From NCBI GenBank assembly GCA_003133065.1, contig PKZM01000185.1, forward strand, positions 1 to 34,987: a DNA stretch of 34,987 bases, in the 5' to 3' direction. The translations under genes were made by a program, and so were the position numbers. This document shows positions 12,288 to 34,902 of the stretch, piece after piece. The first letter of the stretch is position 1; every line of letters starts with the position of its first letter. Under the pieces are notes generated by a model. The model saw nothing but the letters and a program-made list of their open reading frames with translations. It made no database searches and was not told where the DNA came from. The stretch is from Acetobacteraceae bacterium (lineage in GTDB: Bacteria > Pseudomonadota > Alphaproteobacteria > Acetobacterales > Acetobacteraceae).

Positions 12288-13289
12288 CTACTTCAATGCC
12301 ACAGCGTACGCACCGACCGGCAACGCCACCGGAATGACCCCGCGCGCACGCAGAAAGTCTGCAAATCTGTCATACTTCTTGACATCAAGCGAGAACGGAT
12401 CCACCGCAAAGCAGCCGATCGTAAACCGCCACGCCGACAGGTTCAGCGCATTATCGTCATTCGGATACAGCTTCACGAAATCCGCCCAAGCCTGATCCGG
12501 ATGCGCCCTGATATAAGCAACCCCCTCCTGCACCGCGCGTAAAAAACGGGCCATTGCCGGGTCATGCGCGCGGCTCTTCTGCACGATCATGATCAGATAG
12601 TCGAAATCCGGCACGCCATACGCTTCATAATCGAACCCGCGCGGCTTGGCGCCATGCTCGATCAATTCGAACGTCTCAAAATTCCTGTCCACACCGACGG
12701 CATCTACCTGGCCCGTGAGCAACGAGGTTGTGAGCGCGGTGCCGATATTTACCAGCGTCACGTCTGTGAGCTTTAACCCCGCGGTGGACAGCATCTGCGC
12801 GATATCCGCCAGGTTCACATCACCGCCCACATTATTATAGCCGACACGTTTGCCCTTCAGATCGCCGATCGTTTTTATCCCGCTGGGTTCAAGAGTCTCC
12901 AGCGTTTCCATTGGCCGGTCGATCAGCACGCCGATCCGCGCCAATTGCAACCCTTGCGCCACCTGCTGATACAGCTGCGGTTGATAGCCAATGGCGATAT
13001 CCCCACGCCCCGCGGCCACCAGAAGCGGCGGCATGCTGGGATCGGCCGGTTCCACAAATTCCACATCCAGGCCCTGCCGCTGAAAAGCCCCGATGGCTTG
13101 TGCCACAATGAGCGGCCCGTGATTTGGGTTGACAAACCAATCCAGCAGCACGGTCAGCTTATCATTGGCGTGCGCCGGCGCGATCAGCGCAAGAAGCACG
13201 CACGCAATAGGTAAAAGTTCTTTTCTTCTTTCCTTCAAGAAAGAAGATTCTCCTTTTCTGAAGAAAAGAAGCAAAAGACTTTTATTCAT
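12288..13289 (-). CDS. ThiY-like ABC substrate-binding protein (NMT1/THI5 fold), copy 2
   Basis: This is a periplasmic binding protein for a thiamine pyrimidine-type ligand, by homology. The mature part starts NDKLTVLLDWFVNPNHGPLI, with the LDWxxNxxH block typical of ThiY. IAIGYQPQLYQQVAQG, GIKTIGDLKGKRVGY and YEAYGVPDFDYLI follow in family order. The signal peptide ends LLPIACVLLALIAPAHA. The ATG at 13289 lies one base after the stop of the thiaminase I-like gene (TGATATG), but the first 25 codons are repeat R5. A TTG at 13238 inside the repeat has AAGGAG 11 bases before it and gives a compact signal peptide starting MKERRKELLPIAC. It is the last gene of the operon and converges with the phytochrome gene. 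Confidence 0.88.
   Translation of the reverse strand: MNKSLLLLFFRKGESSFLKERRKELLPIACVLLALIAPAHANDKLTVLLDWFVNPNHGPLIVAQAIGAFQRQGLDVEFVEPADPSMPPLLVAAGRGDIAIGYQPQLYQQVAQGLQLARIGVLIDRPMETLETLEPSGIKTIGDLKGKRVGYNNVGGDVNLADIAQMLSTAGLKLTDVTLVNIGTALTTSLLTGQVDAVGVDRNFETFELIEHGAKPRGFDYEAYGVPDFDYLIMIVQKSRAHDPAMARFLRAVQEGVAYIRAHPDQAWADFVKLYPNDDNALNLSAWRFTIGCFAVDPFSLDVKKYDRFADFLRARGVIPVALPVGAYAVALK
13210..13286. repeat. AT-rich double-hairpin repeat inside the signal-peptide region, copy R5
   Basis: The outer arms GTAAAAGTTCTTTTC and GAAGCAAAAGACTTTTA enclose two hairpins, as in R2 and R6. It lies within the 5' end of the copy 2 binding-protein gene and is translated as SLLLLFFRKGESSFLKERRK if the ATG at 13289 is used. 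Other copies have AAGAAG where this one has AAGGAG (minus strand, 13250-13255). Confidence 0.85.
13250..13255 (-). promoter_or_regulatory. Shine-Dalgarno-like AAGGAG inside repeat R5
   Basis: AAGGAG on the minus strand lies 11 bases before an in-frame TTG (13238) that would start the binding-protein signal peptide. Sister repeats read AAGAAG here, so a single base change would have created a good ribosome site. The spacing is slightly long. Confidence 0.4.
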
Positions 13290-13290
13290 A

Positions 13291-14481
13291 TCAGTGGCTC
13301 GCAGGCAAGGCCGCGCTGACGGCGGCGGCGGCCTTGTGCAGCATGGCGTTAAGGGCGGGGGCCTCAACCACGATCCCATTATTCAGAATCGGCAGAAACC
13401 TCGCGTAGAGCGGCGCTGCTGCCAGTATCGCCTTGTCCGCGTAGCTATCCGCCCGTGCCGGCAAAAGATACCGCGGCGGCGTACCCACGTGCGGAACCAG
13501 CAAAGCCCGGTACGTGGACGCCTGCATGGCGTAGCGAATGAAATCCTCCGCATCCTGATGCAGCACGCCGTGTACATGGGCATCGATACCATACATATCC
13601 ACCCAAACGACCTGATGCGGCTCGGCCTCGGAAAACGGCCACGGGCCCACATGGATATCCGCTTGTGCCAGGCAATAATCCCCTGCCCGGCAGGATGTTT
13701 CACCCTCCTCCAGAATGTCGTGAGTGGCTTCGGAATACCCGATGAATGCGCTGCCCGCGCCCCGCGCGAATTGCCGCGCATAAAATCCGGGCTTTGTGTC
13801 ATCAGCCAGGTTGCGCCCGAACCCGGCCGGCTCCAGCGCCAGAATCTGCTGCATGGTCCGTACCAGTGCCGGATCGGGGCCGCGCTTCACATCCGCCAGT
13901 GCGCCCGCAGCACTTGCCTCGCGGCCGAGAAAATACGACAGGATCAGTTCTCCCAACGCAGGCTCGGTCATATCCAGGAGAAGCCCTCGCGCCGGCGGCA
14001 ACGCCACTTGCAACGCAGCCAGTGTGTGCGCAGACGCCAACGCAGGCTGATCCGCCCGCGTGAACAGAAAGTCACTGCACAACCAATGCGGAACAGCCAC
14101 CAGCACGTGACCCTGCAATGCTGCCTGCTGCGCGAGCGGATACAGTTGCGGCACCGTCGCGGCGAATCCCGGCGAGAAAGGCGCGAGCTTATGGTGGTCC
14201 AGGAAGTCCTTCAAGAAGATCGCGTCTATTTCGTGAATGTCCGAATCCTCTTCCAGCACACCGCCGGCGCCCGGCGTGGCATCATAGTAGTTTTCGTTCA
14301 GCGTTATCCGCAGCAATACCCCGGGATGGGCTTCCTCAAACCCTTGTTTCAGTATTAACGCCGCGTCCGCCGCATCGGGGATATAAGGATACATGGAAAG
14401 ATGCAGCACGCGCGGCATCGGCGCCGCGCTGCCAAGCAGCCAGGCGGCTACTGCCCACAGGCTGCAAAACCTAAGGCGCAT
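13291..14481 (-). CDS. Thiaminase I-like secreted protein (thiamine pyridinylase family)
   Basis: Thiaminase I cuts thiamine at the methylene bridge, handing the pyrimidine to a nucleophile and freeing the thiazole. The 396-residue product has a signal peptide (MRLRFCSLWAVAAWLLGSAA). Blocks that match thiaminase I as I remember it are LHLSMYPYIPD, then EIDAIFLKDFLDHHKLAPF, VPHWLCSDFLF with C135 at the nucleophile position, ARGAGSAFIGYSE with E251 at the catalytic-base position, and RYLLPAR. The Cys-to-Glu spacing (116) is close to the 128 of the Paenibacillus enzyme. The ATG at 14481 overlaps the GntR gene end by 11 bases and has AAGG 9 bases upstream. The fold is related to binding proteins, so a pure ligand-binding role is the main alternative. 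Confidence 0.78.
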   Translation of the reverse strand: MRLRFCSLWAVAAWLLGSAAPMPRVLHLSMYPYIPDAADAALILKQGFEEAHPGVLLRITLNENYYDATPGAGGVLEEDSDIHEIDAIFLKDFLDHHKLAPFSPGFAATVPQLYPLAQQAALQGHVLVAVPHWLCSDFLFTRADQPALASAHTLAALQVALPPARGLLLDMTEPALGELILSYFLGREASAAGALADVKRGPDPALVRTMQQILALEPAGFGRNLADDTKPGFYARQFARGAGSAFIGYSEATHDILEEGETSCRAGDYCLAQADIHVGPWPFSEAEPHQVVWVDMYGIDAHVHGVLHQDAEDFIRYAMQASTYRALLVPHVGTPPRYLLPARADSYADKAILAAAPLYARFLPILNNGIVVEAPALNAMLHKAAAAVSAALPASH

Positions 14482-15190
14482 TCTGGGTATCCTTGTCTTC
14501 CGCGACATGGCCCGCATCGATCACGTGGAGCCGCATTGCATGATAGGCAGCTTCTGGCTCCCGCCGCAGGATCGCCTGGACAATCCCGTGATGCTCCATA
14601 TGGGAAATCTCCATGCGCCGGCGTTCGGAGATGAATTCCGCCCGCGTATAGGGCAAGGTGCGCATCCGCATCTGCTCTATCCCGCGCGAAAGCACGGCGT
14701 TATGGGCACCTTCATGCACAATCTGGTGCAGCAGCTTGTTTGTCTTGTCAAAACGCTGCGCCTGGCCGCGCGCGACGATCTGCACCATATCAGCCTGCAC
14801 GGCCGAGAGATGCTGGCGTTCCGCCTCCGTCATCCGCTGCGCCGCGTACCGCGCGCCGGAAGCCTCAAGATCGGCAATGACCTCGACAAGATAGGTGAAA
14901 TGATCCAGGCTCCGCTCGGCCACAACCACGCCCTGCCGCAACCTGATATCCACCATGCCCAGAGACGCAAGTTGGCGCAGTGCTTCGCGCACAGGCGTAC
15001 GGGACACCTGATAGCGTGCGGCTATTTCATTTTCTTCCAGCCGCATCCCCGGCGGCAGCGTACCGCGCGCGATGTCGTTCACGATCTTCTGCTGCACAAT
15101 CCCAGCCAGCGTCGGCGCCGGCTCGCGGACCTCCGCCTCCACAGCCAAAGCCAGCGTGGCGTCAAGCCCGGGCTTCAATCGCGCTTTCAT
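14471..15190 (-). CDS. GntR-family (FadR/FCD) transcriptional repressor
   Basis: The 239-residue protein has an N-terminal winged helix (about 27-95) with GTLPPGMRLEENEIAARYQ and SRTPVREALRQLASLGMVD, the standard GntR recognition helix. A C-terminal all-helical FCD domain follows, with likely metal-site residues among D148, H155 and H197 (FDKTNKLLHQIVHEGAHN and HMEHHGIVQAI). FCD regulators usually sense an organic acid or pathway intermediate and repress their own cluster. The start codon overlaps the stop of the aldehyde dehydrogenase remnant (ATGA). Its likely binding site is CGTGTATACACG, found at both main promoters and ahead of the Rieske genes. Confidence 0.92.
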   Translation of the reverse strand: MKARLKPGLDATLALAVEAEVREPAPTLAGIVQQKIVNDIARGTLPPGMRLEENEIAARYQVSRTPVREALRQLASLGMVDIRLRQGVVVAERSLDHFTYLVEVIADLEASGARYAAQRMTEAERQHLSAVQADMVQIVARGQAQRFDKTNKLLHQIVHEGAHNAVLSRGIEQMRMRTLPYTRAEFISERRRMEISHMEHHGIVQAILRREPEAAYHAMRLHVIDAGHVAEDKDTQNAP

Positions 15191-15537
15191 AGGCGGGCGA
15201 CAACGCCTTTGACTTCGGTATAGTGCTCGATGGCCGCAAACCCCGAAGCCCGCCCCCAGCCCGATTGCTTGTAGCCACCCATCGGGAACGCCGGATCGAA
15301 GAAATTATGCGTATTGATGCACAGATTGCCCCATTTTATCCGCCCGGCAATCTGATGCTCGGCCTTCAAATTTTGCGTCCACACGCTCGCATGAAGCCCA
15401 TAGATACTGTCGTTGGCGGCCGCCACGGCTTCATCGATATCCGCGAACGGTACTGCGCACAGCACCGGGCCGAACACCCCCCCCACAAACGCACCCGACT
15501 CGGCTCCTATGTTCAGGTCGGCAGCATCCATGGACAA
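15187..15537 (-). pseudogene. C-terminal fragment of an aldehyde dehydrogenase
   Basis: The roughly 95 C-terminal residues are well preserved: FGPVLCAVPFADIDEAVAAA, NDSIYGLHASVWT, then WGNLCINTHNFFDPAFPMGG and YKQSGWGRASG. The NAD-binding part and the catalytic cysteine region are missing. The first 20 residues (MSMDAADLNIGAESGAFVGG) resemble the stretch ahead of the EEIFGPVL motif only loosely. Repeat R6 lies immediately upstream, so the gene may have been cut at the repeat. Its stop overlaps the GntR start by ATGA, which may explain why the fragment survives: it can pass ribosomes to GntR. A missing upstream dehydrogenase function might be supplied elsewhere. Confidence 0.8.
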
Positions 15538-15549
15538 AGCTCCTCAATA

Positions 15550-15625
15550 AGTAAAAGTTCTTTGCTTCTTTCTTTCAAGAAAGAAGACTCTTCTTTTTTG
15601 AAAAAAAGAAGCAAAAAACTTTTAT
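15550..15625. repeat. AT-rich double-hairpin repeat, copy R6
   Basis: GTAAAAGTTCTTTGCTTC, two hairpins and GAAGCAAAAAACTTTTA form a palindrome at the junction between the dimethylformamidase-like large subunit and the dehydrogenase fragment. The TAA stop of the large subunit (15622-15624) is part of the repeat edge. The flanks match R5 (CAATAGGTAAAAG there, CAATAAGTAAAAG here). Confidence 0.85.
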
Positions 15626-17784
15626 TCGTTGGCGTGTAGGAAGCGGCGCAGTACGTTCAGGGTGATCTGGCTGACATTATTTTTATAGCCATTATGCGAT
15701 AGACTGCCGGCCCAGGCGATTGAGCCGGTGGCGAACACGGCGCCGCCCCCGGCGCAGTCGAAGTAAACCATCTCCGCATAAACCGCGGAAGTCTCCGCCT
15801 GGCCCGCGTAGTTGATCAGGAGATCCTCCACCGTCGGCAGATAATTACGCGTATGATTCTCCGATCGCGCCAGAACAAGCGTGTTTGGCGGCGTGCCCAG
15901 CGCCGGTTCTGTGCGGTCAAGTTCCAGCCCGGCGGCGCCGCCGCCGATCAACCCGAAATCGCCGATGATTTCGTCCGAGACGCCCGCGAAAATAAAAGCT
16001 GCCTCCTGGCGATAACTATCCGGCAAACGCCGATAGTAGCTGCTCACATCAAAGCCCTGGCCCACAAACCCCACGCCCACCACCGATTGCGGCGCACGCC
16101 CCAACCTTCGCCACAATCCGCCTGGCTCCCCGCTATAGGCGTGCACCGCTTCCCCAGGCGGCGTGATCCAGCCATTGCCGACTTCGGCGCGCCGCACTTC
16201 AATAATGCCCGGCCGTGTCGGATGGAACGCGATGCGCCAATACAGCGCATTGGCCCCCATATGCATGATGTGGCCGCCGCCATCGCGATACGCCAGTAAT
16301 GCGTCATGCATGCGGGTTGACCAATATTCCGCGTGAGTGGCCGTCATTACGCACGCATACGGCGACAGGACGGCTGCACCTTCGGCGTGCAAATCCTCAT
16401 CCGTAATGCAGTCGCACGCGATACCGTTTTTATCGAGAAAGTCCAGCAAATGCGTGTCCGCCGCCAACTGCCACAGCGAAGACCCCGTGCCGCCGAGCCA
16501 ACTTTGATATTTTGGCCGCATGTTCAGGATTGGGCGATGGCGGGACGAGGTCATGATGCCGCTGCCGTCATCATGAACGTCGTAGAGGGAACCTCCAAGT
16601 TCACGATGCGCCGCCAGATGCAGATCATTCGGCCCGAAGGCCGGCACGTGATCATGCACGCGTTCGGCCAGTGCGGCATCCAGGGCCAGGTGCTCGTTCG
16701 CGTAAGCCAGATAGCTTGCTGTGGGGATGATCAGCGCAAGCCGCGCCCCACTGCCGCCGGCACGCGGCCGCACCACGAACGGGACATAATCCTCATCCTG
16801 CGCAGTATGCACACGGGCCGCATACAGCCCGCTCGGCAGGTCGGTCGGCGCTGTCCACGTAAAGTCGGTTTTCCAAGAGGCATCTTCGCAATCGTCCTGA
16901 TGGAAATGGATGGCGGCATACTGCGCCGTTGCGCGCTGCCAATCGAACACCGTGCCGTCCCACGCGTGGCCTGCCACGCCGCGGGCCGGCCCCTGCACCA
17001 GCGTGCCATGCAGCGCGTTTGGCCCCGAATCCTGCACGACATCGGTGCCGATCCCCACGCTGAAATCCCACGCGCCGACCAGCGCCTCGCCACAGTGCAG
17101 CACGGGGGCTTCCAGGCGCCCGTTGAAATGCCCCGCGAACCGGCCCGGCGCCCCCGCCGGCCGCGCAGCGAGAACCAGGGCAGCATGCTCCACGCCGAGG
17201 CCGCGAAGGCCGGTGTCCCGCCCTGTTTCCCCGCTATCGCATATGCCAGGATACCGGACCAGCGCCTGCTGCCGCACCTGCGCGCGCCCGGTCTCCACAT
17301 CGAATATCGCCTCCACACGATACCAGTGGCGCGCCAGCAGAGGCAGCCCCAGATGGAGCGTGGCGCTGCCGCCGGTTCCATCGCCCAGGCGAAGGCTCAA
17401 GCCCTGAGAACCCGCAAACGCCAGAATGAAGCCGGCCCCGCTGGCAGGCTGCCACAGGCTTGCGATTGTCTGGTCCATTTGATCCGGCAAGGTTGGCCAT
17501 ACCAACACGCTGAATCGAAAACTGGCTAGCGCCGACGGCCCCCTGTGCACGGGGATAACAGCACAGGAACCAGCATTCACCTTCTGGGGCCGGCCAGCAA
17601 TCCGCCAGTTTGCATCTGGCACACTCTGCTCGCGATAGCCCGGGCCCGCCGGATTGGTGTCCGCGTTAAACAACCGCACAATCGCGGCATCATAGGCTGC
17701 CGAATCCTCACTGCTGACCTTGAACGCGATGGTTTCGCCAGGCGCGACGCTGATCTTGTCGGCATATCCCAGCAGGCTTTTCAT
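15622..17784 (-). CDS. N,N-dimethylformamidase-like large (beta) subunit
   Basis: Dimethylformamidase is an iron-dependent amidohydrolase made of a small and a large chain. This 720-residue protein has the family layout: an N-terminal beta-sandwich/lectin-like region (about 1-340, including FRFSVLVWPTLP and HWYRVEAIFDV) and a C-terminal DMFA-like domain (about 345-715). Residues matching the known iron site are Y401 (GGSLYDVHDDG), H484 and E486 (TATHAEYWS). Their spacing, 83 and 2, is close to Y440, H519 and E521 of the Paracoccus enzyme, recalled from memory. The ATG at 17784 overlaps the small-subunit stop (ATGA). Relatives often act on unknown amides, so dimethylformamide need not be the substrate; an N-formyl pyrimidine fits the neighbours better. 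Confidence 0.85.
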   Translation of the reverse strand: MKSLLGYADKISVAPGETIAFKVSSEDSAAYDAAIVRLFNADTNPAGPGYREQSVPDANWRIAGRPQKVNAGSCAVIPVHRGPSALASFRFSVLVWPTLPDQMDQTIASLWQPASGAGFILAFAGSQGLSLRLGDGTGGSATLHLGLPLLARHWYRVEAIFDVETGRAQVRQQALVRYPGICDSGETGRDTGLRGLGVEHAALVLAARPAGAPGRFAGHFNGRLEAPVLHCGEALVGAWDFSVGIGTDVVQDSGPNALHGTLVQGPARGVAGHAWDGTVFDWQRATAQYAAIHFHQDDCEDASWKTDFTWTAPTDLPSGLYAARVHTAQDEDYVPFVVRPRAGGSGARLALIIPTASYLAYANEHLALDAALAERVHDHVPAFGPNDLHLAAHRELGGSLYDVHDDGSGIMTSSRHRPILNMRPKYQSWLGGTGSSLWQLAADTHLLDFLDKNGIACDCITDEDLHAEGAAVLSPYACVMTATHAEYWSTRMHDALLAYRDGGGHIMHMGANALYWRIAFHPTRPGIIEVRRAEVGNGWITPPGEAVHAYSGEPGGLWRRLGRAPQSVVGVGFVGQGFDVSSYYRRLPDSYRQEAAFIFAGVSDEIIGDFGLIGGGAAGLELDRTEPALGTPPNTLVLARSENHTRNYLPTVEDLLINYAGQAETSAVYAEMVYFDCAGGGAVFATGSIAWAGSLSHNGYKNNVSQITLNVLRRFLHANE

Positions 17785-18128
17785 TCGGCGCCACCTTCCG
17801 ACCACAGCGCTTCATCGTGCGGCAACGCGTATCCCGTCTCCGCCTCCCAGCGCAGGCGGAACACATGGCGTTCCGCATCCTCGATCGTCGTGAAGACAGG
17901 GCCGTCGATACGCGTTGGCGGCACACCGCGCACGCCACTGATGCGCCCGATCGCCCATTGCGCATGCGGCTTCAGGCAAATCAGACAATATTTGCCGGCG
18001 ACGGGGCCGCTGCGCAGGATATTGAGGACTGCCTCCAGCGCCGCGCTATGATGCCCGATCGGCCGGACCCAGAATTCCCGCACCGGATCAAGCCGCGTGG
18101 GATCGATCCGGGTGGCCCGATTCCTCAT
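17781..18128 (-). CDS. N,N-dimethylformamidase-like small (alpha) subunit
   Basis: The 115-residue protein is read from ATG at 18128, which overlaps the stop of the upstream binding-protein gene by ATGA. It resembles the small chain of dimethylformamidase: a helical N-terminal part (RLDPVREFWVRPIGHHSAALE), a central GKYCLICLKPHAQWAIGRI segment and a C-terminal FTTIEDAERHVFRLRWEAE helix that corresponds to the EEA-HAVFLRRIE end of the known subunit. Sequence similarity in this small chain is low, so the call rests mostly on size, the end motif and the adjacent large subunit with an ATGA overlap. It has no signal peptide, so the enzyme is expected in the cytoplasm. Confidence 0.72.
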   Translation of the reverse strand: MRNRATRIDPTRLDPVREFWVRPIGHHSAALEAVLNILRSGPVAGKYCLICLKPHAQWAIGRISGVRGVPPTRIDGPVFTTIEDAERHVFRLRWEAETGYALPHDEALWSEGGAE

Positions 18129-19168
18129 GGCTCCAGCTGCACCGCGAACTGGCTGATTGGGAGTGCCGTGCCGATAATGCCCTCGTGAGCGAGAAAGTCC
18201 TGAAATGCCATATAGCGCTTCGCATCCAGGGCTGCCGGATCGGGCGCCAGCAGGGGCAAGGTGGCCGCCCACGCAGCCTTGTTCAAAGCCGTATCCATTT
18301 CCGGATGGTCTTTTACCAGATCGGCCCAGACCGAATCTGGGTGGGCCGCCAAGCAGGCCGCCCCCTGTTTGAGCGCAGTGAGGAAGCGCTTTAGGCGAGG
18401 GTCGCCGAGCTTGTTATGCGACGCGACGAGAATCAATTCATCGTAGAGCGGCACGCCGTTAGTTTGGGGTGTAAACACGATCGGCGCGCGCCCCATCTGC
18501 TGCGCCTCTATCACCTCGTAATTGCTGTAAGCACCGATCGCCGCATCGAGTTGGTGCGACATTAGGGCTGGCAGCATCTGGAAATTCACTTTCACCACCG
18601 TCACGTCGTCTAGCGAGAGGTGATGGCTCTTCAGCATGGCACCAAGCAGCGCCTCCTCAACACCGCCTACGGACACACCAATCTTGCGGCCTTTGAGATC
18701 CTCCATGGTTTTGATGCCGCTGTCGCCCAACGCCATCACGGTGTTCAGGGGGCGGTTCACGAGTGTTGCCACGCGCACCAGGCCAAGCCCGTGATCGTCC
18801 ATCATGTTCAACTGGGTCTGGTAGCTTACGGCGAGATCGGCTTGGCCGGCCGCCACCAGCCGCGGCGGCGAATCCGGATCGGCCGGGGGCAGAATGCTCA
18901 CATCCAGGCCCTGCGCCGCGTAATCGCCGCAATACTGGGCGGCGAACAAGGCGGCGTGGTTGGTATCGACGAACCAATCGAGAATAACGTTGAACTTATC
19001 AGCGGCGTGCGCGCAGGGGGAAAAAAGCAAGAAAAGAAGGAAGGCCTTCTTTTTTGAAAAAAAGAAGCAAAAAACTTCTGACTGTTGGGGCGCGACTCGC
19101 CGGAAGCGCGCGCAAAGGGACAAAAGTTTTTTGGTTCTTTTTTTCAAAAAAGAACTCTTTCTTCTCAA
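18125..19168 (-). CDS. ThiY-like ABC substrate-binding protein (NMT1/THI5 fold), copy 1
   Basis: This is a periplasmic binding protein of the same family as the one at 12288-13289. The mature part starts ADKFNVILDWFVDTNHAALF; the LDWFVNxNH block has D in place of the first N. LAVSYQTQLNMMDDHG, GIKTMEDLKGRKIGV and NGVPLYDELILVASH follow. The hydrophobic core FLLFLLFSPCAHA ends at a good cleavage site. The start is uncertain: a TTG at 19168 overlaps the TonB receptor stop (TTGA), and another TTG lies at 19123. In either case the codons before the hydrophobic core are repeat R7, which supplies the SKKK charge. The two binding proteins probably share the single ATPase-permease pair at 23439-24991. 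Confidence 0.87.
   Translation of the reverse strand: MRRKSSFLKKRTKKLLSLCARFRRVAPQQSEVFCFFFSKKKAFLLFLLFSPCAHAADKFNVILDWFVDTNHAALFAAQYCGDYAAQGLDVSILPPADPDSPPRLVAAGQADLAVSYQTQLNMMDDHGLGLVRVATLVNRPLNTVMALGDSGIKTMEDLKGRKIGVSVGGVEEALLGAMLKSHHLSLDDVTVVKVNFQMLPALMSHQLDAAIGAYSNYEVIEAQQMGRAPIVFTPQTNGVPLYDELILVASHNKLGDPRLKRFLTALKQGAACLAAHPDSVWADLVKDHPEMDTALNKAAWAATLPLLAPDPAALDAKRYMAFQDFLAHEGIIGTALPISQFAVQLEP
19040..19160. repeat. Composite AT-rich hairpin repeat, copy R7
   Basis: A hairpin at about 19043-19075 (CCTTCTTTTTTGAAAAAAAGAAG) and another at about 19121-19155 (GTTCTTTTTTTCAAAAAAGAAC) flank the spacer GTTGGGGCGCGACTCGCCGG. It sits inside the 5' end of the copy 1 binding-protein gene and reaches to within 5 bases of the TonB receptor stop. 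Confidence 0.85.
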
Positions 19169-21603: not shown

Positions 21604-21654
21604 GTGTCGTCCCCGTCTCGTATGCGTGTGGATTAGGCAAATTCTCATTGCAGT

Positions 21655-23016: not shown

Positions 23017-23125
23017 GCCGTGCTCCTTCCCCCATCTGTGCACGGGTGTGATTGCGCGAAACGACACACCCAGGCAGGCCCCATCCATGGACGCACGCGT
23101 GGCCGCCGCGGTCAAATCGGCGTTG

Positions 23126-23158
23126 CGTGTATACACGGCTGCGGCGAAGTCTTTGCAA
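23126..23158 (-). promoter_or_regulatory. Promoter with embedded operator O1 for the minus-strand operon
   Basis: On the minus strand, TTGCAA (23158-23153) and TGTATA (23135-23130) are separated by 17 bases, which is good sigma-70 geometry. The -10 lies inside the perfect palindrome CGTGTATACACG (23126-23137). A repressor bound there would block polymerase. Transcription would start near 23123, giving a leader of roughly 107 bases before the GTG at 23016. Confidence 0.6.
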
Positions 23159-23334
23159 ACGACGTGCCACACTATGTGACCGCTTGCCGGAATACAAATC
23201 ATACGCGTAGCCCTGCATGCGGGCACGCTTCCGCGGCACTTGACAAGGCAGATGCCTATCTATCGCTCAGTGGCGCGTGTGCGGGATGGAAAACCCGAAG
23301 CCGCATGTTGCCACGCACAACGTGCTTGCTTTCA

Positions 23335-24991: not shown

Positions 24992-24999
24992 AAAAGCAA

Positions 25000-25146
25000 G
25001 GCCAGGGGCGCGGCCCCTGGACCCCGCTGGAGCCGAAAGGCCCCAGACCCGGGCTTCGCCCTGCAATCCCACACCGTTGGGGATCGACAGGATGGGCGTC
25101 TGGGGCCCCTAGGCCGCAGCGGGGTCCGGGGGCCGCGCCCCTGGCC
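25000..25146. repeat. 147-bp GC-rich palindromic element
   Basis: The outer arms 25000-25029 and 25117-25146 are inverted copies that match at 29 of 30 positions (GGCCAGGGGCGCGGCCCC... in the left arm). A second, inner pair (GGCCCCAGAC at 25039-25048 and GTCTGGGGCC at 25098-25107) matches perfectly. The element has no coding capacity of its own and sits between the permease and amidohydrolase genes. It looks like a dispersed non-autonomous repeat, unrelated to the AT-rich hairpins; it may also act as an attenuator inside the operon. Confidence 0.85.
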
Positions 25147-25166
25147 TTCCCTCAGAAAGGTTCCCC

Positions 25167-27850: not shown

Positions 27851-28326
27851 GCAACCTTCTCCCGCTCGAACTGCACATGCAAATGACGCTTTTGTTCGAG
27901 GAATACGCAAGGCTTCTGGATGAAGATCGTCTGGAGGAATGGACCGATCTGTTCACGGAGGAATGTCTGTACGAAATCGTCAGCCGTGAAAACGTGCAGC
28001 AGAACCTGCCGCTCTCGCTCATGCTCTGCGACAACAAGAACATGATCCGGGACCGGATCAGTGCTCTGCGGCAAGCCAACATCTACAACATCCATACCGA
28101 TTGCCACGTAATCGGCCCCATACGTGGCACGGTGGGTGAGGCCGGTTACGAGGCCAGCGCCGCCTACTCGCTTTTCCAAAGCACGCAGGAGGGCGAAACC
28201 CGCCTCTTCAGCGTCGGCCGCTACCACGCACTCGTCATTGAGCGCGGCGGGCTGCTCCGGTTCGTCCGCCAACGTGTCATCGTCGATACCGGCGCCATAC
28301 TCACCCTGCTGGCCACCCCGATCTGA
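27847..28326 (+). CDS. Rieske oxygenase small (beta) subunit
   Basis: The 159-residue protein has the cone-shaped SnoaL-like fold of ring-hydroxylating oxygenase beta subunits. Typical blocks are YARLLDEDRLEEWTDLFTEE at about 19-38, LMLCDNKNMIRDRISALR near 60, NIHTDCHVIGPI near 81, and the final strand FVRQRVIVDTG. It has no redox centre and serves to hold the alpha subunit trimer together. The start overlaps the alpha-subunit stop (ATGA), and the next gene follows after 37 bases. Confidence 0.92.
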   Translation: MSNLLPLELHMQMTLLFEEYARLLDEDRLEEWTDLFTEECLYEIVSRENVQQNLPLSLMLCDNKNMIRDRISALRQANIYNIHTDCHVIGPIRGTVGEAGYEASAAYSLFQSTQEGETRLFSVGRYHALVIERGGLLRFVRQRVIVDTGAILTLLATPI

Positions 28327-28363
28327 TCAAGTCGCTTGTCCGAGCACGAGGAAAACGCTTTCG

Positions 28364-29185
28364 ATGCAATCCATCTCCTACCCGCTCGCCATCGGCGCCC
28401 ACACCACGCGAATCATCGAGGCCGGTGTGGGACCCGCCGTGATGTTCGTGCATGGCCTGGGCGCGCGCGCCGACCGCTGGCGCGGCACCGTGGAACGCAT
28501 TGCCGATCACGGCTACCGCGCTATCGCGTGGGATCTGCATGGCCACGGCTTCGCGAGCAAGGAGCACGACGGCCCTGCCAATGTGCCGGCTCTTGCCGAT
28601 TTCCTGTGGGCTATCCTGGATCGCCTGGACGTCGGCCCGGTCGTGCTGGTCGGCACCTCGCTCGGTGCCCACATCGCGGCCTATGCCGCCTGCCAGTTTC
28701 CCGCCCGCGTTGGCGGCATCGCCATGGTTGGCGCCCTCGGGGTGGTACCCATTCCCCAGCTTACCGCCGACACGATCCGCAGGAACGTCCAGGCTGCCTC
28801 TCGCCCGCAGATCGAGGCCAAACTGAAATTCGTGATCGTGGATCCGGCACAAGTGCCCCAATCCCTCATCGAGGAAGAATGGCGCATTAACAACGCCCCC
28901 GGCGCCCTGCAAGCCTTCGGCCGCCTGGGCGACTACCTGGCGAGCGGCATAGCGGGGGATTACGTTGCAGAGAAACTCGTGGCGCTGTTCCCACCTGCAA
29001 AATTTCTCCTGATCTGGGGCGCGCTGGACACCGCCGTTCCGCTTGCCGTCGGGGAAGAATGTCGGCAGGCGCTTAATAATCCTGAATACGTTCTTATTCC
29101 ACATGCGGGCCATGCCCCGTACTATGAACAACCCGATCTTTTTGATCCGCCGCTTCTCGCCTTCCTCGAAAAAGCGGCCGCATAA
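28364..29185 (+). CDS. Alpha/beta hydrolase (C-C or ester hydrolase type)
   Basis: The 273-residue enzyme has the triad S99 in GTSLG, D222 in WGALDTAVP and H250 in PHAGHAPYYEQPDLF. The oxyanion loop is MFVHGLGARADRW near 27-39. The arrangement resembles meta-cleavage-product hydrolases and related esterases that often accompany Rieske oxygenases. No ring-cleavage dioxygenase is in the window, so an ester, carbamate or amide substrate is equally possible. The ATG at 28364 gives the normal N-terminus, with GAGG about 12 bases upstream. It is the last gene of the plus-strand operon and converges with the alcohol dehydrogenase across repeat R8. Confidence 0.88.
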   Translation: MQSISYPLAIGAHTTRIIEAGVGPAVMFVHGLGARADRWRGTVERIADHGYRAIAWDLHGHGFASKEHDGPANVPALADFLWAILDRLDVGPVVLVGTSLGAHIAAYAACQFPARVGGIAMVGALGVVPIPQLTADTIRRNVQAASRPQIEAKLKFVIVDPAQVPQSLIEEEWRINNAPGALQAFGRLGDYLASGIAGDYVAEKLVALFPPAKFLLIWGALDTAVPLAVGEECRQALNNPEYVLIPHAGHAPYYEQPDLFDPPLLAFLEKAAA

Positions 29186-29189
29186 GCTA

Positions 29190-29314: not shown

Positions 29315-29319
29315 CTTCC

Positions 29320-30357
29320 CTACTCCTGCACCAACAACACCACCCTACCCATCAATCCCCCCGACTCCACCGCCTCCAGCCCGCGCGCGAACTCCGCCAA
29401 CGGCAGCGTATAATCCACCACCGGCTTCATCTTTCCCATCGCCACCAGGTCCACCACATCGTGCAAATCCTGCAATGTGGATCCTACCGAGGCCAGCACC
29501 ACCAGCTCGCGCACGATCAGCGCCACCGGATGCACGGAAAATTCCTCGCCCGTATATCCCACCAGCACCAGCCGCCCGCGCCGGCGCAGCATCGCCATGG
29601 AAGCCCGCATTGTCGCGGCCAGCCCTACCAGCTCGAACACGACGTCCGCGCCTTCACCCGTGATTGCAGCCACGTCCGCCGCCACGTCGCTCACCTTGCC
29701 GGCATCGATCGTCACTGAAGCGCCCAGGTCTTTTGCCAACGCCAGCTTCTCAACGCCGATGTCGATGGCGATCGTCCGCGCCCCGCACGAAGCCGCATAT
29801 TGCAACAGCGCCAGCCCAACGCCGCCCGTGCCATGCACCACTACCCACTCGCCTGGCCGTATCCCTGCCATCTTGCCGGCATGCACCGCAGTGGATCCAG
29901 CACAGCCCATCGGCGCAATCTGCGCCAACGGCACATCATCGGGCACCTTCACGCAATTCGTCGCCCGCACGACCATGAACTCCGCGTAACCGCCATCGGT
30001 GGTAAAACCAGGCTGGGCGAGGGGTGCCGGGCAAAGCTGCTCATCACCCGTGCGGCAATACCGGCATTGCCCGCAGCCCTCATAATAATACACCACCACG
30101 CGCTCGCCCAACCGGCGCGCATTCACGCCGGCTCCAAGCTTTTCGATCACGCCGGCAATTTCGTGCCCCACGGCGAAGTCCCGACGCCCCAGATCCAGCA
30201 ATCCGTCGCGCAGATGTAGCTCGGTGCGGCACATGCCGCACGCCTCCACCCGCACACGCACCTGGCCGGTCGCCGGTTCGGGTATCGCCACAGCACGCAG
30301 CGCGAAGGATTGCGCTGGCCCAAGATAGCGTACACTGCGCATTGTCCCTGTGGTCAT
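29320..30357 (-). CDS. Zinc-dependent alcohol dehydrogenase (MDR family)
   Basis: This 345-residue medium-chain dehydrogenase oxidises an alcohol with NAD(P). The catalytic zinc site includes the cysteine in EACGMCRTELHLRDG and the histidine in FAVGHEIAG. The structural zinc is held by four cysteines in GCGQCRYCRTGDEQLC. The cofactor loop is VVVHGTGGVGLALLQ, near residue 170. The ATG at 30357 has AAGGAGG 5-6 bases upstream, one of the best ribosome sites in the window. It is the last gene of the second minus-strand operon, 17 bases after tenA. A hydroxymethyl- or hydroxyethyl-substituted ring would be a natural substrate in this setting, but that is inference. Confidence 0.93.
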   Translation of the reverse strand: MTTGTMRSVRYLGPAQSFALRAVAIPEPATGQVRVRVEACGMCRTELHLRDGLLDLGRRDFAVGHEIAGVIEKLGAGVNARRLGERVVVYYYEGCGQCRYCRTGDEQLCPAPLAQPGFTTDGGYAEFMVVRATNCVKVPDDVPLAQIAPMGCAGSTAVHAGKMAGIRPGEWVVVHGTGGVGLALLQYAASCGARTIAIDIGVEKLALAKDLGASVTIDAGKVSDVAADVAAITGEGADVVFELVGLAATMRASMAMLRRRGRLVLVGYTGEEFSVHPVALIVRELVVLASVGSTLQDLHDVVDLVAMGKMKPVVDYTLPLAEFARGLEAVESGGLMGRVVLLVQE

Positions 30358-30374
30358 ATCCGCCTCCTTCACCG

Positions 30375-31079
30375 TCAAACCGGAAAATTCCGCTGTTGCC
30401 CGGCGCGCCAGAACGCCGCTTCCAGTTGCGCAGCGGTGCGGAAATCCCGCAGCAGCATCGGATACCGCGCCTCTGCCCCCCGCGCAGCCCATACCCGGTC
30501 AAGCGCCTCCATCGCCTCGATCGCGCCGGCTGCGTACTCATCGGAAGCATAAGCCTGCATCCACCGCAGATACGGGTTTCCCTCGATCTTCGTTTCCGGA
30601 TCGGCCAGCAATCGCGCCCCCACCTCGCCATACCCTACGGAGCACGCCGAAAGGCTCACAAGCAGGTCCAGCACATCTCCCGCCACCCCGCGGTCCACCA
30701 AAAACCGCGAATATGCCAGCAACTCCAGAGATTCCGGCTGCGCTTGCATGTCCGCCTCGCTCAACCCCCATTGCGCGCAGAATTCCACATGCAGCGGCAT
30801 CTCTGCCAGCACATGGCCCATCACCCGCGCGGCCGCCCGCATCTCCGGCAGCGTATCGCTCTTGAATACCGCGAGCGCATAGCAGCGCGCATAATGAATC
30901 AGATACAGATAATCCTGTGTCAGGAAGGTACGAAAGTCGTTCTCTGGCAACGTCCCTCGCGCCAGGGCCCGCACGAATTCATGCTGGGTATACGCCGCCC
31001 AATCCGCACCCGCATCCCGGCGCAACCGCCCGAACAGGCCGCCTTCAATCTGCTTCAGAAAACCCGCCGGCTCCGCCAT
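30375..31079 (-). CDS. tenA: TenA-family aminopyrimidine aminohydrolase (thiaminase II)
   Basis: TenA hydrolyses 4-amino-5-aminomethyl-2-methylpyrimidine, a thiamine breakdown product, to HMP; it can also hydrolyse thiamine. The 234-residue protein keeps the triad: D56 (FLTQDYLYLIHYAR), C146 (SACSVGYGEVG) and E220 (AAQLEAAFW). It is therefore a TenA_C-type enzyme. MPLHVEFCAQWGL near 95 and NPYLRWMQAYASDEY near 168 are further family blocks. The frame stays open 53 codons upstream into repeat R9, but the ATG at 31079 has GAGAGGTG just before it and gives the usual N-terminus. In known salvage routes TenA follows deformylation of the pyrimidine by an amidohydrolase; several amidases lie in this locus. 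Confidence 0.9.
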   Translation of the reverse strand: MAEPAGFLKQIEGGLFGRLRRDAGADWAAYTQHEFVRALARGTLPENDFRTFLTQDYLYLIHYARCYALAVFKSDTLPEMRAAARVMGHVLAEMPLHVEFCAQWGLSEADMQAQPESLELLAYSRFLVDRGVAGDVLDLLVSLSACSVGYGEVGARLLADPETKIEGNPYLRWMQAYASDEYAAGAIEAMEALDRVWAARGAEARYPMLLRDFRTAAQLEAAFWRAGQQRNFPV

Positions 31080-31208
31080 CCCACCTCTCCCATGCGCCGC
31101 CGCGGCGCGTTCCGCACGCAGTGGATGCCGCCAATCCAGGCCCCCGGTCAACCACCAAATCATATCCCCAACGCGTGCGTTTTCGGCCCAGTCCGCGACA
31201 GCAACGCC

Positions 31209-31256
31209 AACAGTCTTTTGCTCCTTTTCTTCAGACAAGAAGACCTTTCTTCCTTA
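31209..31256. repeat. Degenerate AT-rich hairpin repeat, copy R9
   Basis: AACAGTCTTTTGCTCC, then TTTTCTTCAGACAAGAAGA and CCTTTCTTCC, resemble the other copies but with several mismatches. It lies in the 174-base gap between the amidase and tenA genes, inside an operon, and reaches the amidase stop. Confidence 0.65.
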
Positions 31257-32681
31257 AATCTCCACTCCACTCGCCGGATCAATGATCGGGAATTCGATCA
31301 GAAAATCACGGGACTGCTCGAGCAGGCGGAGAATATGAAGCACGCCCGAATCATCAAACCGTCTTCCCGCGATTTGCACGCTGATCGGGCATTCGCCCTG
31401 ATCTGCCTGCATCACCGCGACTGTGCCTGCTGGACGGCCGAGCTGATTGAACCAGCATGCGAAGCCCATATGGCTCATCGCGCCGAGCGGCGGGCTCGGG
31501 CTGATGGCGTCTACCGGAAACTGGCGGACCGGCAGGGCAGGCGAAAGGATATAATCGAAGGGCGCCAATTGCTTCTCCAACCGGGAAGCTGCCGCGCCCA
31601 GTCGCTTGGCCATCTTGCCCATGAACAGCGCCGTGTGGTTGAGGGCTTCGTCGCACATCCGCCCGATATCGGCCTGCACCAGGCCGCGCCGTGCGGCCGG
31701 TGCCGCGTACAGCTCCGGCAGGCCTTTATGCAGCATGGTCCAGGTGACGGCGTCGTAATCCTCCTGCGTCACATCCAGATCCTGCAGGGCAGTAACGTCC
31801 GCGCCCCGCGCGGCGAGCACCTGCGCAGCTTGCGTGGCCGCACGCAGGGTGAGTTCATCCACGGCATCGCCATAGCGCAACCCAGCCAGAAAACCGATAC
31901 TGATGCCGTCAATCCGGCCGATGGTTTTGCGATCATCCCTGAATTGTCCGGGGTGCGCGTAGTGGTCGGCGGGATCGTACTGGCCGACCACCTCCAGCAA
32001 TGCGGCGACATCACCCACCGTGCGGGCCATCGGGCCGGCGCCGCGGTAATTGCCGGGCGGATCGTAGGCCACGCGCCCTTGTGTCGCGTGGATCGATGCG
32101 AGGCCGCAGGCGGCGGCCGGCAGCCGCACCGAACCCACCATATCGGTACCAAGTGCCAGCGGCGCCACGCCACAAGCCAGGCATGCCGCCGCCCCCGCAC
32201 TGGAACCCGCGGGATTGGTCAGCGGATTCCAGGGATTACGCACGATCCCCGAATGCGAACTGAGGCCAGACATCAGCAGCCCGTAATCCGGCATCGATGT
32301 TTTCGCCACGATGACCATTCCCGCCTCACGCGCGCGCCGCACCGGTGCCGCATCGAACGTGGAAACCACGCCCTCACTCACCGCGCTGCCATGCCAGCGC
32401 GGCAGGCCACGAATATTGAAACTGTCCTTAAAGGTGATTGGCACGCCATCCAGGGGGCCGAGCGGCGTGCCCGCGCGCCAGCGTGCCGCGCTGCTGGCCG
32501 CTTCACGGCGTGCATCCTCGCCATTGATGCAGGTCACCGCGGCATAACGCGCCTGTGCCTGCCGCGCCGCGGCCAGCACGGTATCGGTAACCTCGATCGG
32601 GCTGATGGTACTGTCCGCATATCGCGCCCGCAACTCTGCGGCATTGAGGGCCAGCAGCGCCGCGCGATGCGCACCACTCAC
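31254..32681 (-). CDS. Amidase-signature family amidase
   Basis: This 475-residue serine hydrolase has the Ser-cisSer-Lys triad K85 (PITFKDSFNIRG), S160 (NPAGSSAGAA) and S184 (DMVGSVRLPA). The spacings 75 and 24 are the same as in fatty-acid amide hydrolase (K142, S217, S241). GVPITFKDS and PLALGTD are standard. The loop NPAGSSAG replaces the more common GGSSGG. The start is GTG at 32681, whose GTGA overlaps the sulfurtransferase stop and has GGAG 7 bases upstream; an ATG at 32732 is possible but would overlap by 55 bases. A ring-attached amide or formamide, such as the product a TenA route needs removed, is a plausible substrate. Confidence 0.92.
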   Translation of the reverse strand: MSGAHRAALLALNAAELRARYADSTISPIEVTDTVLAAARQAQARYAAVTCINGEDARREAASSAARWRAGTPLGPLDGVPITFKDSFNIRGLPRWHGSAVSEGVVSTFDAAPVRRAREAGMVIVAKTSMPDYGLLMSGLSSHSGIVRNPWNPLTNPAGSSAGAAACLACGVAPLALGTDMVGSVRLPAAACGLASIHATQGRVAYDPPGNYRGAGPMARTVGDVAALLEVVGQYDPADHYAHPGQFRDDRKTIGRIDGISIGFLAGLRYGDAVDELTLRAATQAAQVLAARGADVTALQDLDVTQEDYDAVTWTMLHKGLPELYAAPAARRGLVQADIGRMCDEALNHTALFMGKMAKRLGAAASRLEKQLAPFDYILSPALPVRQFPVDAISPSPPLGAMSHMGFACWFNQLGRPAGTVAVMQADQGECPISVQIAGRRFDDSGVLHILRLLEQSRDFLIEFPIIDPASGVEI

Positions 32682-33565
32682 TGTGTCCGCTCCGGTCCCG
32701 TCTCCAACTTCAGTGCCGGATTGGCTTTCCATTCGTTCAGAGAGCCATCATAGATCTTTGCTGCGCCATACCCCGCTTCGCTCAGCGCCAGCGCCAGCCC
32801 CGCCGCGTTGATGCCACCGCCACAATAGAGCAGTATTTCGTCCGCCCGATCCAAACCCACGCGGCTTGCGTGCTGTCGCACGCGCGCCAGATCGATTCGC
32901 CCAGACGCATCCAGCATGTCCCGGAACGGCATGTTGTAACTCCCTGGGATATGCCCGCGGCGTGGATCCAGGCTGGTCTGCCCGGTGAAGTCGCCACGCG
33001 GCAGCGCGCATATCAGATGCGCCACGCGCCGCCCTGCAACCACATCCAGCACCTCTGTGGTGCCGACATAAGCATCAGGCCGTTCCACCGGAACGAAATC
33101 ACCCGGCCGCGCAGACACATCCCCGGCCCCAAATTCAAGCTTGCCGCCCGCTTCTATCCACGCCTTCAGGCCGCCATCGAGCACGCGCACATGGGTGTGT
33201 CCAAAGCCGCGCAACACCCACCACACGCGCGCCGCCCAGGCGCCACTCAGCGAATCATACGCCACCACAAGGCTGTTCGCATGAATGCCCAGCGCCCGCA
33301 CCACACGCGCGAACGCCTCCGCGCGGGGCCGGGTGAACAAGAACGCGCCGTCGGGGTCCGAAAACCCGTCGTTCAGATCGGCGAACCTTGCCCCCGGAAT
33401 ATGCCCGTCCCCTTGGAAACCCGGCCGCCCGCTGAGATAGGTTAGCTTGCCGCCGGCGGTTTCCGCTGGCCCGACGCGCGCATCCAAAATCAACAGTTCT
33501 GGCCGATCGAAATGCTTACGCAACCAGGTAGCACTGACCAGGTTCGAGGATCTCTCGGCACTCAT
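32678..33565 (-). CDS. Sulfurtransferase, two-domain rhodanese / 3-mercaptopyruvate type
   Basis: The 295-residue protein has two rhodanese domains. The N-terminal one (about 5-140) includes LLILDARVGP and GHIPGARFADLN. The C-terminal one (about 165-285) includes RRGHIPGSYNMPF and the active C248 in LYCGGGINAAGLAL. The active loop CGGGIN differs from the CGSGVT of typical mercaptopyruvate sulfurtransferases, so the sulfur donor is uncertain. The ATG at 33565 overlaps the upstream monooxygenase stop (ATGA). In this operon it could accept sulfur released from a substrate such as a thiazole ring; that role is inference. Confidence 0.9.
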   Translation of the reverse strand: MSAERSSNLVSATWLRKHFDRPELLILDARVGPAETAGGKLTYLSGRPGFQGDGHIPGARFADLNDGFSDPDGAFLFTRPRAEAFARVVRALGIHANSLVVAYDSLSGAWAARVWWVLRGFGHTHVRVLDGGLKAWIEAGGKLEFGAGDVSARPGDFVPVERPDAYVGTTEVLDVVAGRRVAHLICALPRGDFTGQTSLDPRRGHIPGSYNMPFRDMLDASGRIDLARVRQHASRVGLDRADEILLYCGGGINAAGLALALSEAGYGAAKIYDGSLNEWKANPALKLETGPERTQ

Positions 33566-34893
33566 CGCGCTGCCCGCGCCCGCCATTCGCCCCGTTCCGG
33601 GCGGCGCAGGCCAAGATTATCACGCAGCGTTTGCCCTTCGTAGCGCGTGCGAAGAAGCCCCCGCCGTTGCAGTTCCGGCACCACATGGGCAGCAAAGTCG
33701 CTGAACGCGCCGGGCAAATGCGTCGCCTGGATCATGAATCCGTCCGCGGCGCCCTGCTCCATCCAGTTTTCCATCCGATCGGCAATCTCGCCCGGCGCGC
33801 CGATCATGTCGCCCTCGGTGCGGGCGCCATACCATTTGCCGATCTGGCGCACTGTCAGTTGCTCGCGCTCGGCAAATTCCACAACCTCACGGTAATGGCC
33901 CTCCACGCCCACCTCCGCCAGGCTCGGCAGCCGCCCATCCAGATCGTATTTTGTCAGATCCACGTTCACGTGATAGGCCAGCCGCGAAAGGCCGGCCTCC
34001 GGCGTCACCAGATCCTCGAAATCGTTATGTTTTCGAATAGCTTCTTCCTGGGTGGCGCCGATTACCGTGGTCGCGGCCGGCAGGATTTTCAGTTGCGCTG
34101 GGTCGCGGCCATGGCGGGCGGCACGCTGTTTCATGTCGGCATAGAAGCCGATCGCCGTCTGAAGCGATTCATGGCTGCAGAAAATCACATCAGCCCAGCG
34201 CGCGGCGAAATCCCGACCCGCCGGAGATGCACCCGCCTGCACGATCACCGGATATCCTTGTGGCGCCCGCGGCACGCTCAGCGGCCCCTGCACGCCAAAA
34301 TAGGGGCCGTGGTGATCGATCGAGTCCACCCGCTCCGGCCGCCCGAAAATGCCACTCGCCTTGTCCAGAACCAGCGCATCGTCGGCCCAGCTATCCCACA
34401 ACCGGGCTGCCGCGGTCAGGAACTCCTCAGCACGCGCATAGCGTTCAGCACGCGGGGGCAAGCTTGCCTCGCCGAAATTCTGCGCTTCCGCATCCTGAAA
34501 GGAGGTCACGACATTCCAGGCCGCGCGGCCCTCGGTGAGGTGATCCAGCGTGGCGAAGGCGCGGGCCACATGATAGGGCTGGGCGTAGCCGGTAGAGAGC
34601 GTCGCGGCGATGCCCAAATGCCGAGTCACGGCTGCCATCATGGCAATCACCGGCATTGGATCCAGCCGCGGCGTGCCGGATCCCCAGCGCACGGCCGGAT
34701 CGAACGTGCCGCCCAAACTGCGCGGCATGGCCAACGCGTCAGGGATGAACACCATGTCGAACATCGCGGCTTCGAGCATGCGCGCGATGTCGGTGTAGTA
34801 GCGGGCGCGGAGAAAATCGGGGGAGGCCTCGGCGTGACGCCAGCCCGCGGTGCCTTGGGGGCCGGCGTTCATGAAGGCGGCGAGGTGCATCAT
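33562..34893 (-). CDS. LLM-class flavin-dependent monooxygenase (NtaA/SnaA/DszA family), copy 2
   Basis: The 443-residue enzyme is a diverged relative of the one at 21655-23016. Shared blocks include LHL/MHLAAFMNAGPQGTAGWRH at the N-terminus, FDMVFIPDALAMP, LDHLTEGRAAWNVVTSFQDAEA, RLWDSWADDALVLDKASGIF and VIVQAGASPAGRDFAARWAD. Both copies also end in the same style (PGAFSDFAAHVVPELQRRGL). It needs reduced FMN from a reductase not found in the window. The start is one of two adjacent ATGs (34893 or 34890); no Shine-Dalgarno sequence precedes them because repeat R10 begins 10 bases upstream. It heads the second minus-strand operon, as far as can be seen. Confidence 0.9.
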   Translation of the reverse strand: MMHLAAFMNAGPQGTAGWRHAEASPDFLRARYYTDIARMLEAAMFDMVFIPDALAMPRSLGGTFDPAVRWGSGTPRLDPMPVIAMMAAVTRHLGIAATLSTGYAQPYHVARAFATLDHLTEGRAAWNVVTSFQDAEAQNFGEASLPPRAERYARAEEFLTAAARLWDSWADDALVLDKASGIFGRPERVDSIDHHGPYFGVQGPLSVPRAPQGYPVIVQAGASPAGRDFAARWADVIFCSHESLQTAIGFYADMKQRAARHGRDPAQLKILPAATTVIGATQEEAIRKHNDFEDLVTPEAGLSRLAYHVNVDLTKYDLDGRLPSLAEVGVEGHYREVVEFAEREQLTVRQIGKWYGARTEGDMIGAPGEIADRMENWMEQGAADGFMIQATHLPGAFSDFAAHVVPELQRRGLLRTRYEGQTLRDNLGLRRPERGEWRARAAR

Positions 34894-34902
34894 GGAAGGA
34901 AG

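Follow-up and report, generated by a model that had tools for sequence, protein, structure and literature searches.

A conserved Acetobacteraceae gene cluster predicted to take up and degrade both halves of vitamin B1

A locus at positions 12288-34929 of the present stretch is proposed to take up thiamine (vitamin B1) and/or its breakdown products and to degrade both halves of the molecule, a reading to which we assign a probability of roughly 60%. The stretch, hereafter the window, covers bases 1 to 34,987 of a contig of 51,014 bases in an Acetobacteraceae genome of 4.19 Mb (230 contigs, 89.9% complete). The locus appears to combine a pyrimidine module with a thiazole module, and its link to thiamine, already claimed in a preliminary description of this DNA, is strong, while the individual reactions are deduced from sequence. 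This reading is built on gene content, conserved residues and conserved neighbourhoods, from which reactions, transport and regulation are predicted. Bacterial thiamine breakdown has been known biochemically for decades and the parts of the locus belong to known families, but the gene combination and the thiazole module appear to be undescribed: the openly licensed literature yielded no description of this gene set, most subscription papers lying outside it, and the preliminary description likewise knew of no described locus with the full set. A more far-reaching proposal is tentative, and we put it slightly below even odds: the locus would encode an undescribed oxidative pathway mineralising both B1 rings, with a route for the thiazole that is present in both Alphaproteobacteria and Actinobacteria and one for the pyrimidine via an aza-anthranilate attacked by a Rieske dioxygenase.

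Layout and gene content of the locus

Each gene named in the preliminary description is open at its place and matches the family given there in profile or structure matches, and the three operons it described correspond to three divergent gene blocks of window open reading frames (12288-23226 minus, 23439-29185 plus, 29320-34929 minus). The gene set is not a chance grouping, because most of it recurs in other genera. Two genes had been overlooked. The first is a remnant of an aldehyde dehydrogenase (ALDH) between the GntR regulator and the DMFase-like (N,N-dimethylformamidase-like) gene; the second is ThiM, a hydroxyethylthiazole kinase directly upstream of the flavin monooxygenase LLM2, just past the window edge. 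The earlier statement that the locus holds no thiamine kinase was hence an error caused by this edge. Two N stand at contig positions 34988-34989, and the ThiM-LLM2 adjacency in this assembly crosses a join; the order ThiM-LLM2-sulfurtransferase is the same in two other genomes, Tanticharoenia and G216. The genes are as follows (ADH, alcohol dehydrogenase).

12288-13379, minus: NMT1/ThiY-like periplasmic binding protein 1, true start inside the open reading frame; Pfam NMT1 E 1e-53, THI5 (4h6d) E 2e-25, ThiY (3ix1) E 9e-25
13291-14517, minus: thiaminase I-like protein with N-terminal signal-like stretch; 2THI E 4e-16, C147 and E263 conserved
14471-15190, minus: GntR/FCD regulator; family profiles, 47-51% to regulators in related loci
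15187-15516, minus: ALDH C-terminal stub; 62% to residues 431-541 of the Komagataeibacter intermedius ALDH
15622-17805, minus: DMFase-like large subunit; DMFA2_C E 5e-95, closest solved structures N-acetyl-beta-Phe acylase and DMFase
17781-18130, minus: putative DMFase-like small subunit, C-terminal part of the open reading frame 17781-18272; 59% to the same-place frame in K. intermedius, 50% in G216, no Pfam match
18125-19168, minus: ThiY-like periplasmic binding protein 2; ThiY (3ix1) E 1e-29, clearly above THI5
19165-21648, minus: TonB-dependent receptor; family profile, 33% to the TonB gene before thiaminase in Tanticharoenia
21655-23050 (start approximate), minus: LLM1, NtaA/DmoA-family flavin monooxygenase; TIGR03860 543 bits, best solved match YtnJ/MoxC, 67-75% in related loci
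23439-24227, plus: ABC ATPase; family profiles, 68-72% in related loci
24224-24991, plus: ABC permease; family profiles, 66-69% in related loci
25167-26558, plus: amidohydrolase, which marks the pyrimidine module best; matches of 65-72% confined to genomes that carry this cluster
26540-27850 (start approximate), plus: Rieske oxygenase alpha, aryl-carboxylate type; TphA2 (7q04) E 5e-108, salicylate 5-hydroxylase, AndAc 438 bits (cut-off 750)
27847-28326, plus: Rieske oxygenase beta; AndAd 152 bits (cut-off 230)
28336-29185, plus: alpha/beta hydrolase; family profiles
29320-30380 (start approximate), minus: zinc ADH; family profiles, 58-72% in related loci
30375-31238, minus: TenA (thiaminase II/aminopyrimidine aminohydrolase family); Pfam TENA E 1e-41, 3mvu E 1e-45, TIGR04306 116 bits (cut-off 130)
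31254-32732, minus: amidase (signature family); Pfam E 7e-65, Lys-Ser-Ser motifs
32678-33586, minus: 3-mercaptopyruvate-sulfurtransferase-like protein, loop CGGGINA; curated model 141 bits (cut-off 250)
33562-34929, minus: LLM2, DszA-like flavin monooxygenase, NtaA/DmoA-type; DszA (5tlc) E 1e-114, 387 bits against 299 for the next structure
Contig 35006-35833, minus, outside the window: ThiM; NF006830 209 bits (cut-off 180), TIGR00694 198 bits (cut-off 256)

Conservation of the thiazole module

Of 397 Acetobacteraceae genomes, seven from five genera, the window's own included, have an orthologue of LLM2 (at least 65% identity, E <= 1e-150), and in all seven ThiM and the sulfurtransferase lie within a few kilobases of it; identity of the LLM2 orthologues near ThiM is 65-74% in the six other genomes. 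An amidase is found nearby in five of the seven and RidA in three, and G216 has a RidA-like gene in the pyrimidine part of its cluster. The sulfurtransferases of this trio carry the loop CGGGINA. Furthermore, among the 72,556 plasmids of PLSDB only three hold an LLM2 relative with at least 60% identity and only three a ThiM (E <= 1e-20), and these are the same three records. The Paracoccaceae plasmid shows the order LysR-type regulator, LLM, mercaptopyruvate sulfurtransferase, amidase, HAD hydrolase, RidA and ThiM, and the one Pseudonocardia plasmid inspected has ThiM, LLM and rhodanese. These counts are not independent, since the strains with the two Pseudonocardia plasmids are related and the genomes have common ancestry. 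Nevertheless, because the linkage persists in rearranged surroundings and across phyla, it points to a joint function of ThiM, LLM2 and the sulfurtransferase.

In G178 and in the Paracoccaceae plasmid, a HAD phosphatase gene stands between those for amidase and RidA. It could be taken to prove that catabolism follows a phosphorylated route, but it was judged neutral, because HAD hydrolases also act as thiamine monophosphate phosphatases in salvage operons.

Conservation of the pyrimidine module

A core of Rieske oxygenase, amidohydrolase, ABC pair, ADH and ThiY-like binding protein is shared by Komagataeibacter, Tanticharoenia and one or more other genera, and some of these genomes have the DMFase-like enzyme and TenA beside it. 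The relatives of the thiaminase pointed to Tanticharoenia sakaeratensis and three Komagataeibacter species. One stretch of K. intermedius holds TonB, ADH, Rieske beta and alpha, amidohydrolase, permease, ATPase, binding protein, small and large DMFase subunits, ALDH, GntR, TenA and thiaminase; the proposed check on co-occurrence of the thiaminase I-like gene, the DMFase pair and TenA thus found all of them together in Komagataeibacter. In Tanticharoenia, one stretch contains two LLMs, ADH, the Rieske pair, amidohydrolase, the ABC pair, two binding proteins, ALDH and GntR, and another contig has the sulfurtransferase, LLM2, ThiM, LysR, TonB, thiaminase and a PnuC/PnuT-type transporter. Nearly the whole set is present in G216, with binding protein, DMFase small subunit, DMFase large subunit and TenA in consecutive order and an intact ALDH. 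G369, close to Komagataeibacter (86-87% in three genes), carries the binding protein, ABC pair, amidohydrolase, Rieske pair, ADH and TonB on a short contig. The amidohydrolase was found at 65% identity or more in 4 of the 397 Acetobacteraceae genomes, the window's own included; across the class, only one of 385 genomes passed the threshold, with a distant match (48%). Homologues at 45-48% were set aside; the two inspected lie without such a cluster.

The K. intermedius cluster also includes (L043, 5072-7755) an NCS1 permease that matches CytX weakly and a cytosine-deaminase-like protein (PRK07572, 652 bits, cut-off 438), and a role of this pair in import and deamination of hydroxymethylpyrimidine (HMP) is possible.

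Candidate enzymes and their residues

By alignment, the catalytic residues are conserved in the thiaminase-like, TenA, DMFase-like, amidase and Rieske proteins. The thiaminase I-like protein resembles 2THI across residues 37-380 (E 4e-16), its residues C147, E263, D307, Y43 and D98 are invariant in three homologues, and C147 and E263 align with Cys113 and Glu241, which we take to be the catalytic residues of thiaminase I. With the single thiaminase sequence no match was obtained in the genome contigs, and with a three-sequence alignment matches were. Since no thiaminase match was listed for G216 among the genomes searched with thiaminase, thiaminase I is an optional part of the conserved cluster. 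The earlier idea that thiamine is split outside the inner membrane consequently does not hold as a general feature of the cluster. No thiaminase match was found in phages.

Homologues of the thiaminase in a Bradyrhizobium plasmid, a Bacteroidetes metagenome-assembled genome and Chthonobacter were set aside, their surroundings lacking this cluster. The homologue on the conjugative plasmid of Bradyrhizobium japonicum (L018, 17869-19167; 32%) is annotated only as a binding protein and neighbours hypothetical, ThiF-like, SIR2 and transposase genes; that of the Bacteroidetes genome (L008, 9992-11218; 33%) stands without the rest of the cluster.

In TenA, the Asp, Cys and Glu presumed to be catalytic align with those of 3mvu and THI20. 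The DMFase-like large subunit, about 38% identical to Paracoccus DmfA2, conserves Y399, Y440, H519 and E521 of the Paracoccus aminophilus enzyme, of which Y399, Y440 and E521 are presumably the iron ligands; its putative small subunit is a short reading frame in the expected place that is conserved in the relatives. Plasmid homologues of the DMFase that were inspected sit in other gene contexts. The Lys-Ser-Ser motifs of the amidase are conserved in five homologues of the module. In the sulfurtransferase, the active-site Cys lies in the loop CGGGINA, which is identical in eight homologues and differs from CGSGVTA, which we take to be the usual loop of 3-mercaptopyruvate sulfurtransferases. The closest solved structure to LLM2 is DszA, a C-S cleaving enzyme, and no comparable preference was seen for LLM1.

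The Rieske alpha subunit conserves the Fe ligands and Arg309 (terephthalate dioxygenase numbering), the latter in all five locus orthologues, whereas Arg390, the binder of the second carboxylate in terephthalate dioxygenase, is replaced by Leu in all five; at the further pocket positions N224 and S243 Ala and Ser are found. R309 binds the carboxylate in terephthalate dioxygenase and is found across the aryl-carboxylate oxygenase cluster including anthranilate and salicylate enzymes (PMC9060491). Because this carboxylate-binding Arg is present, the protein is placed by its sequence in the aryl-carboxylate clade. Its best NCBIfam match is AndAc, below the equivalog cut-off.

Proposed breakdown of both rings

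According to our proposal, the TonB receptor, the ThiY-like binding proteins and the ABC pair would import thiamine fragments such as formylaminopyrimidine, from which the DMFase-like enzyme may remove the formyl group as a possible non-homologous deformylase (the step of YlmB in Bacillus), and TenA would convert the resulting aminomethylpyrimidine to HMP. ADH and the ALDH that is intact in relatives could oxidise HMP to 4-amino-2-methylpyrimidine-5-carboxylate, the ring-nitrogen analogue of anthranilate, which would then be attacked by the Rieske oxygenase; its relatives and the single conserved arginine make it a fitting candidate, because this substrate bears an amino group next to the carboxylate like anthranilate. 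The amidohydrolase, LLM1 and the alpha/beta hydrolase are suggested to complete the opening of the pyrimidine ring. For the other half, thiaminase I or TenA would release hydroxyethylthiazole, which ThiM may phosphorylate and LLM2 may open oxidatively at the C-S bond. The amidase could then cleave the formyl group off the opened product, RidA (present in relatives) could hydrolyse the enamine, and the mercaptopyruvate sulfurtransferase-like enzyme would withdraw sulfur from the resulting alpha-mercaptoketone.

Catabolism, salvage and other explanations

Several observations weigh against such a degradative locus. The thiaminase I-like protein scores 71.5 bits against TIGR04541, under the curated cut-off of 175, and is missing from some loci of the cluster. 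Neither a ferredoxin/reductase for the Rieske enzyme nor a flavin reductase for the LLMs was seen in the locus, RidA was not found in the window, and the ALDH for the proposed carboxylate step is reduced to a stub in this genome. In K. intermedius, matches to LLM2 are only weak and the cluster is without a sulfurtransferase, hence the pyrimidine and thiazole modules can be separate. Finally, the host lacks thiC and thiG (provisionally, in an 89.9% complete genome) and keeps thiD (305 bits) and thiE on other contigs, which fits salvage.

This last point deserves closer consideration. The host and two congeners, one of them 99% complete, are without thiC, and for thiG they give only partial matches of 20-34 bits or none, compared to 318-342 bits for true ThiG in relatives. 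All three keep a thiE-family gene, and thiD is above the cut-off only in the window's genome. Because thiC and thiG are absent while thiD and thiE are kept, the host probably must import both thiamine halves or whole thiamine. One may therefore assume that thiamine or damaged thiamine is broken down, that HMP (through DMFase and TenA) and hydroxyethylthiazole (through ThiM) are rejoined by ThiD and ThiE, and that the oxygenases restore or remove oxidised forms. The presence of ThiM and TenA within the locus or next to it agrees with such a route, and there is a precedent in Paenibacillus thiaminolyticus, whose thiaminase I operon also contains thiM, thiD, thiE and a HAD hydrolase gene and has been proposed to serve salvage (PMC5627462). 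However, neither thiD nor thiE was found in the window, the regulators beside the modules are of GntR or LysR type, and known salvage makes no use of a Rieske oxygenase, two LLMs, ADH/ALDH and several amide hydrolases. Moreover, the oxygenase cluster is also present in Tanticharoenia and K. intermedius, which possess thiC and thiG; it is thus not needed for making B1. We consider salvage as the explanation of the whole locus unlikely, but to be taken seriously. Catabolism is probably the principal function, because the oxygenase genes form the conserved core and occur in genomes with thiC and thiG; this host is likely to use the locus for salvage as well. The preference for catabolism in the preliminary description is hence retained, and salvage is plausible too. 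No thiamine pyrophosphate (TPP) riboswitch was found in the window or in the other loci, but this absence was dropped as evidence for catabolism, since none was found near thiC of relatives either.

It is also conceivable that the locus degrades a different aza-aromatic or thiazole compound, a look-alike for which the thiamine-type genes were co-opted. Enzymes and proteins of the binding-protein, LLM, Rieske and DMFase-like families handle many substrates, and the scores of thiaminase, TenA (TIGR04306) and ThiM (TIGR00694, in contrast to NF006830) stay under their curated cut-offs. Still, four separate thiamine-related families (thiaminase I, TenA, ThiY-like and ThiM) converge here with catalytic residues kept, and in Tanticharoenia thiaminase is accompanied by a TonB receptor and a PnuC/PnuT-type transporter, which makes a look-alike substrate improbable. 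Far less probable still is a toxin or antivitamin system in which thiaminase deprives competitors of B1 and the remainder protects or feeds the producer. The signal-like N-terminus would suit it, and a myxobacterial secreted thiaminase I is reported to restrain Phytophthora (PMC10499793), but thiaminase is optional in the conserved cluster and no bacimethrin-type genes are among the locus genes.

The aldehyde dehydrogenase remnant, repeats and neighbouring genes

The ALDH has lost about 430 N-terminal residues, and the remaining 110 or so C-terminal residues align with the K. intermedius enzyme; an intact ALDH occupies the position of the stub in relatives, including K. intermedius and G216. 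Copies of an intergenic repeat sit at the ALDH break. This repeat (AAAAGTTTTTTGCTTCTTTTTTTCAAAAAAGAAG and near copies) occurs ten times in the window, with none expected, at 468-501, 544-577, 3952-3985, 6220-6253, 6956-6989, 15553-15623, 19046-19155 and 34905-34938, and it overlaps gene starts, for example those of binding protein 2 and LLM2. Directly beside the locus, at 9543-12248, lies a phytochrome-type histidine kinase with a response-regulator-like end, as read from the letters alone. Outside the locus, a peroxiredoxin/2-oxoglutarate-Fe oxygenase-like gene (7078-8109) shares 44% identity with a neighbour of the TonB receptor gene in the cluster of Komagataeibacter.

Significance and comparison with known systems

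With the conserved trio of ThiM, LLM and sulfurtransferase, what becomes of the thiazole ring can be tested directly, and ThiM beside a DszA-like LLM and a CGGGINA sulfurtransferase provides marks for finding B1-degrading organisms. This bears on the question of which organisms remove the vitamin, which is scarce, in soils, in fermented foods and in the sea.

Among known systems, the formylaminopyrimidine salvage of Bacillus through ThiY, YlmB and TenA shares the ThiY-like binding protein with an ABC pair, an amide hydrolase and TenA, and the order binding protein, deformylase, TenA is consecutive in G216. Here, however, a DMFase-like enzyme stands instead of YlmB, no YlmB-type gene being among the locus genes, oxidative enzymes are added and thiamine synthesis genes are absent from the cluster. 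The thiaminase I operon of Paenibacillus (PMC5627462) is alike in the association of thiaminase I with ThiM and in a host unable to make either thiamine half, whereas the present cluster lacks bacimethrin genes, thiD, thiE and the TPP riboswitch and adds transporters, oxygenases and amide hydrolases. With the anthranilate 1,2-dioxygenase AndAc/AndAd and the terephthalate/salicylate Rieske clade, the locus enzyme has in common the Fe ligands, the carboxylate-binding Arg309 and its best NCBIfam match; it differs in the score below the AndAc cut-off, in pocket residues and in that no AndAa or AndAb was seen in the locus. DszA of dibenzothiophene desulfurisation, acting at a C-S bond, is the closest solved relative of LLM2, but DszB and DszC are missing here and the partners of LLM2 are ThiM, the mercaptopyruvate sulfurtransferase-like protein, the amidase and, in relatives, RidA. 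Finally, N,N-dimethylformamidase resembles the locus enzyme in the tyrosines and glutamate of the iron site, and the locus has a putative small subunit gene before that of the large subunit; the locus enzyme is only about 38% identical to Paracoccus DmfA2 and sits together with TenA and ThiY-like genes.

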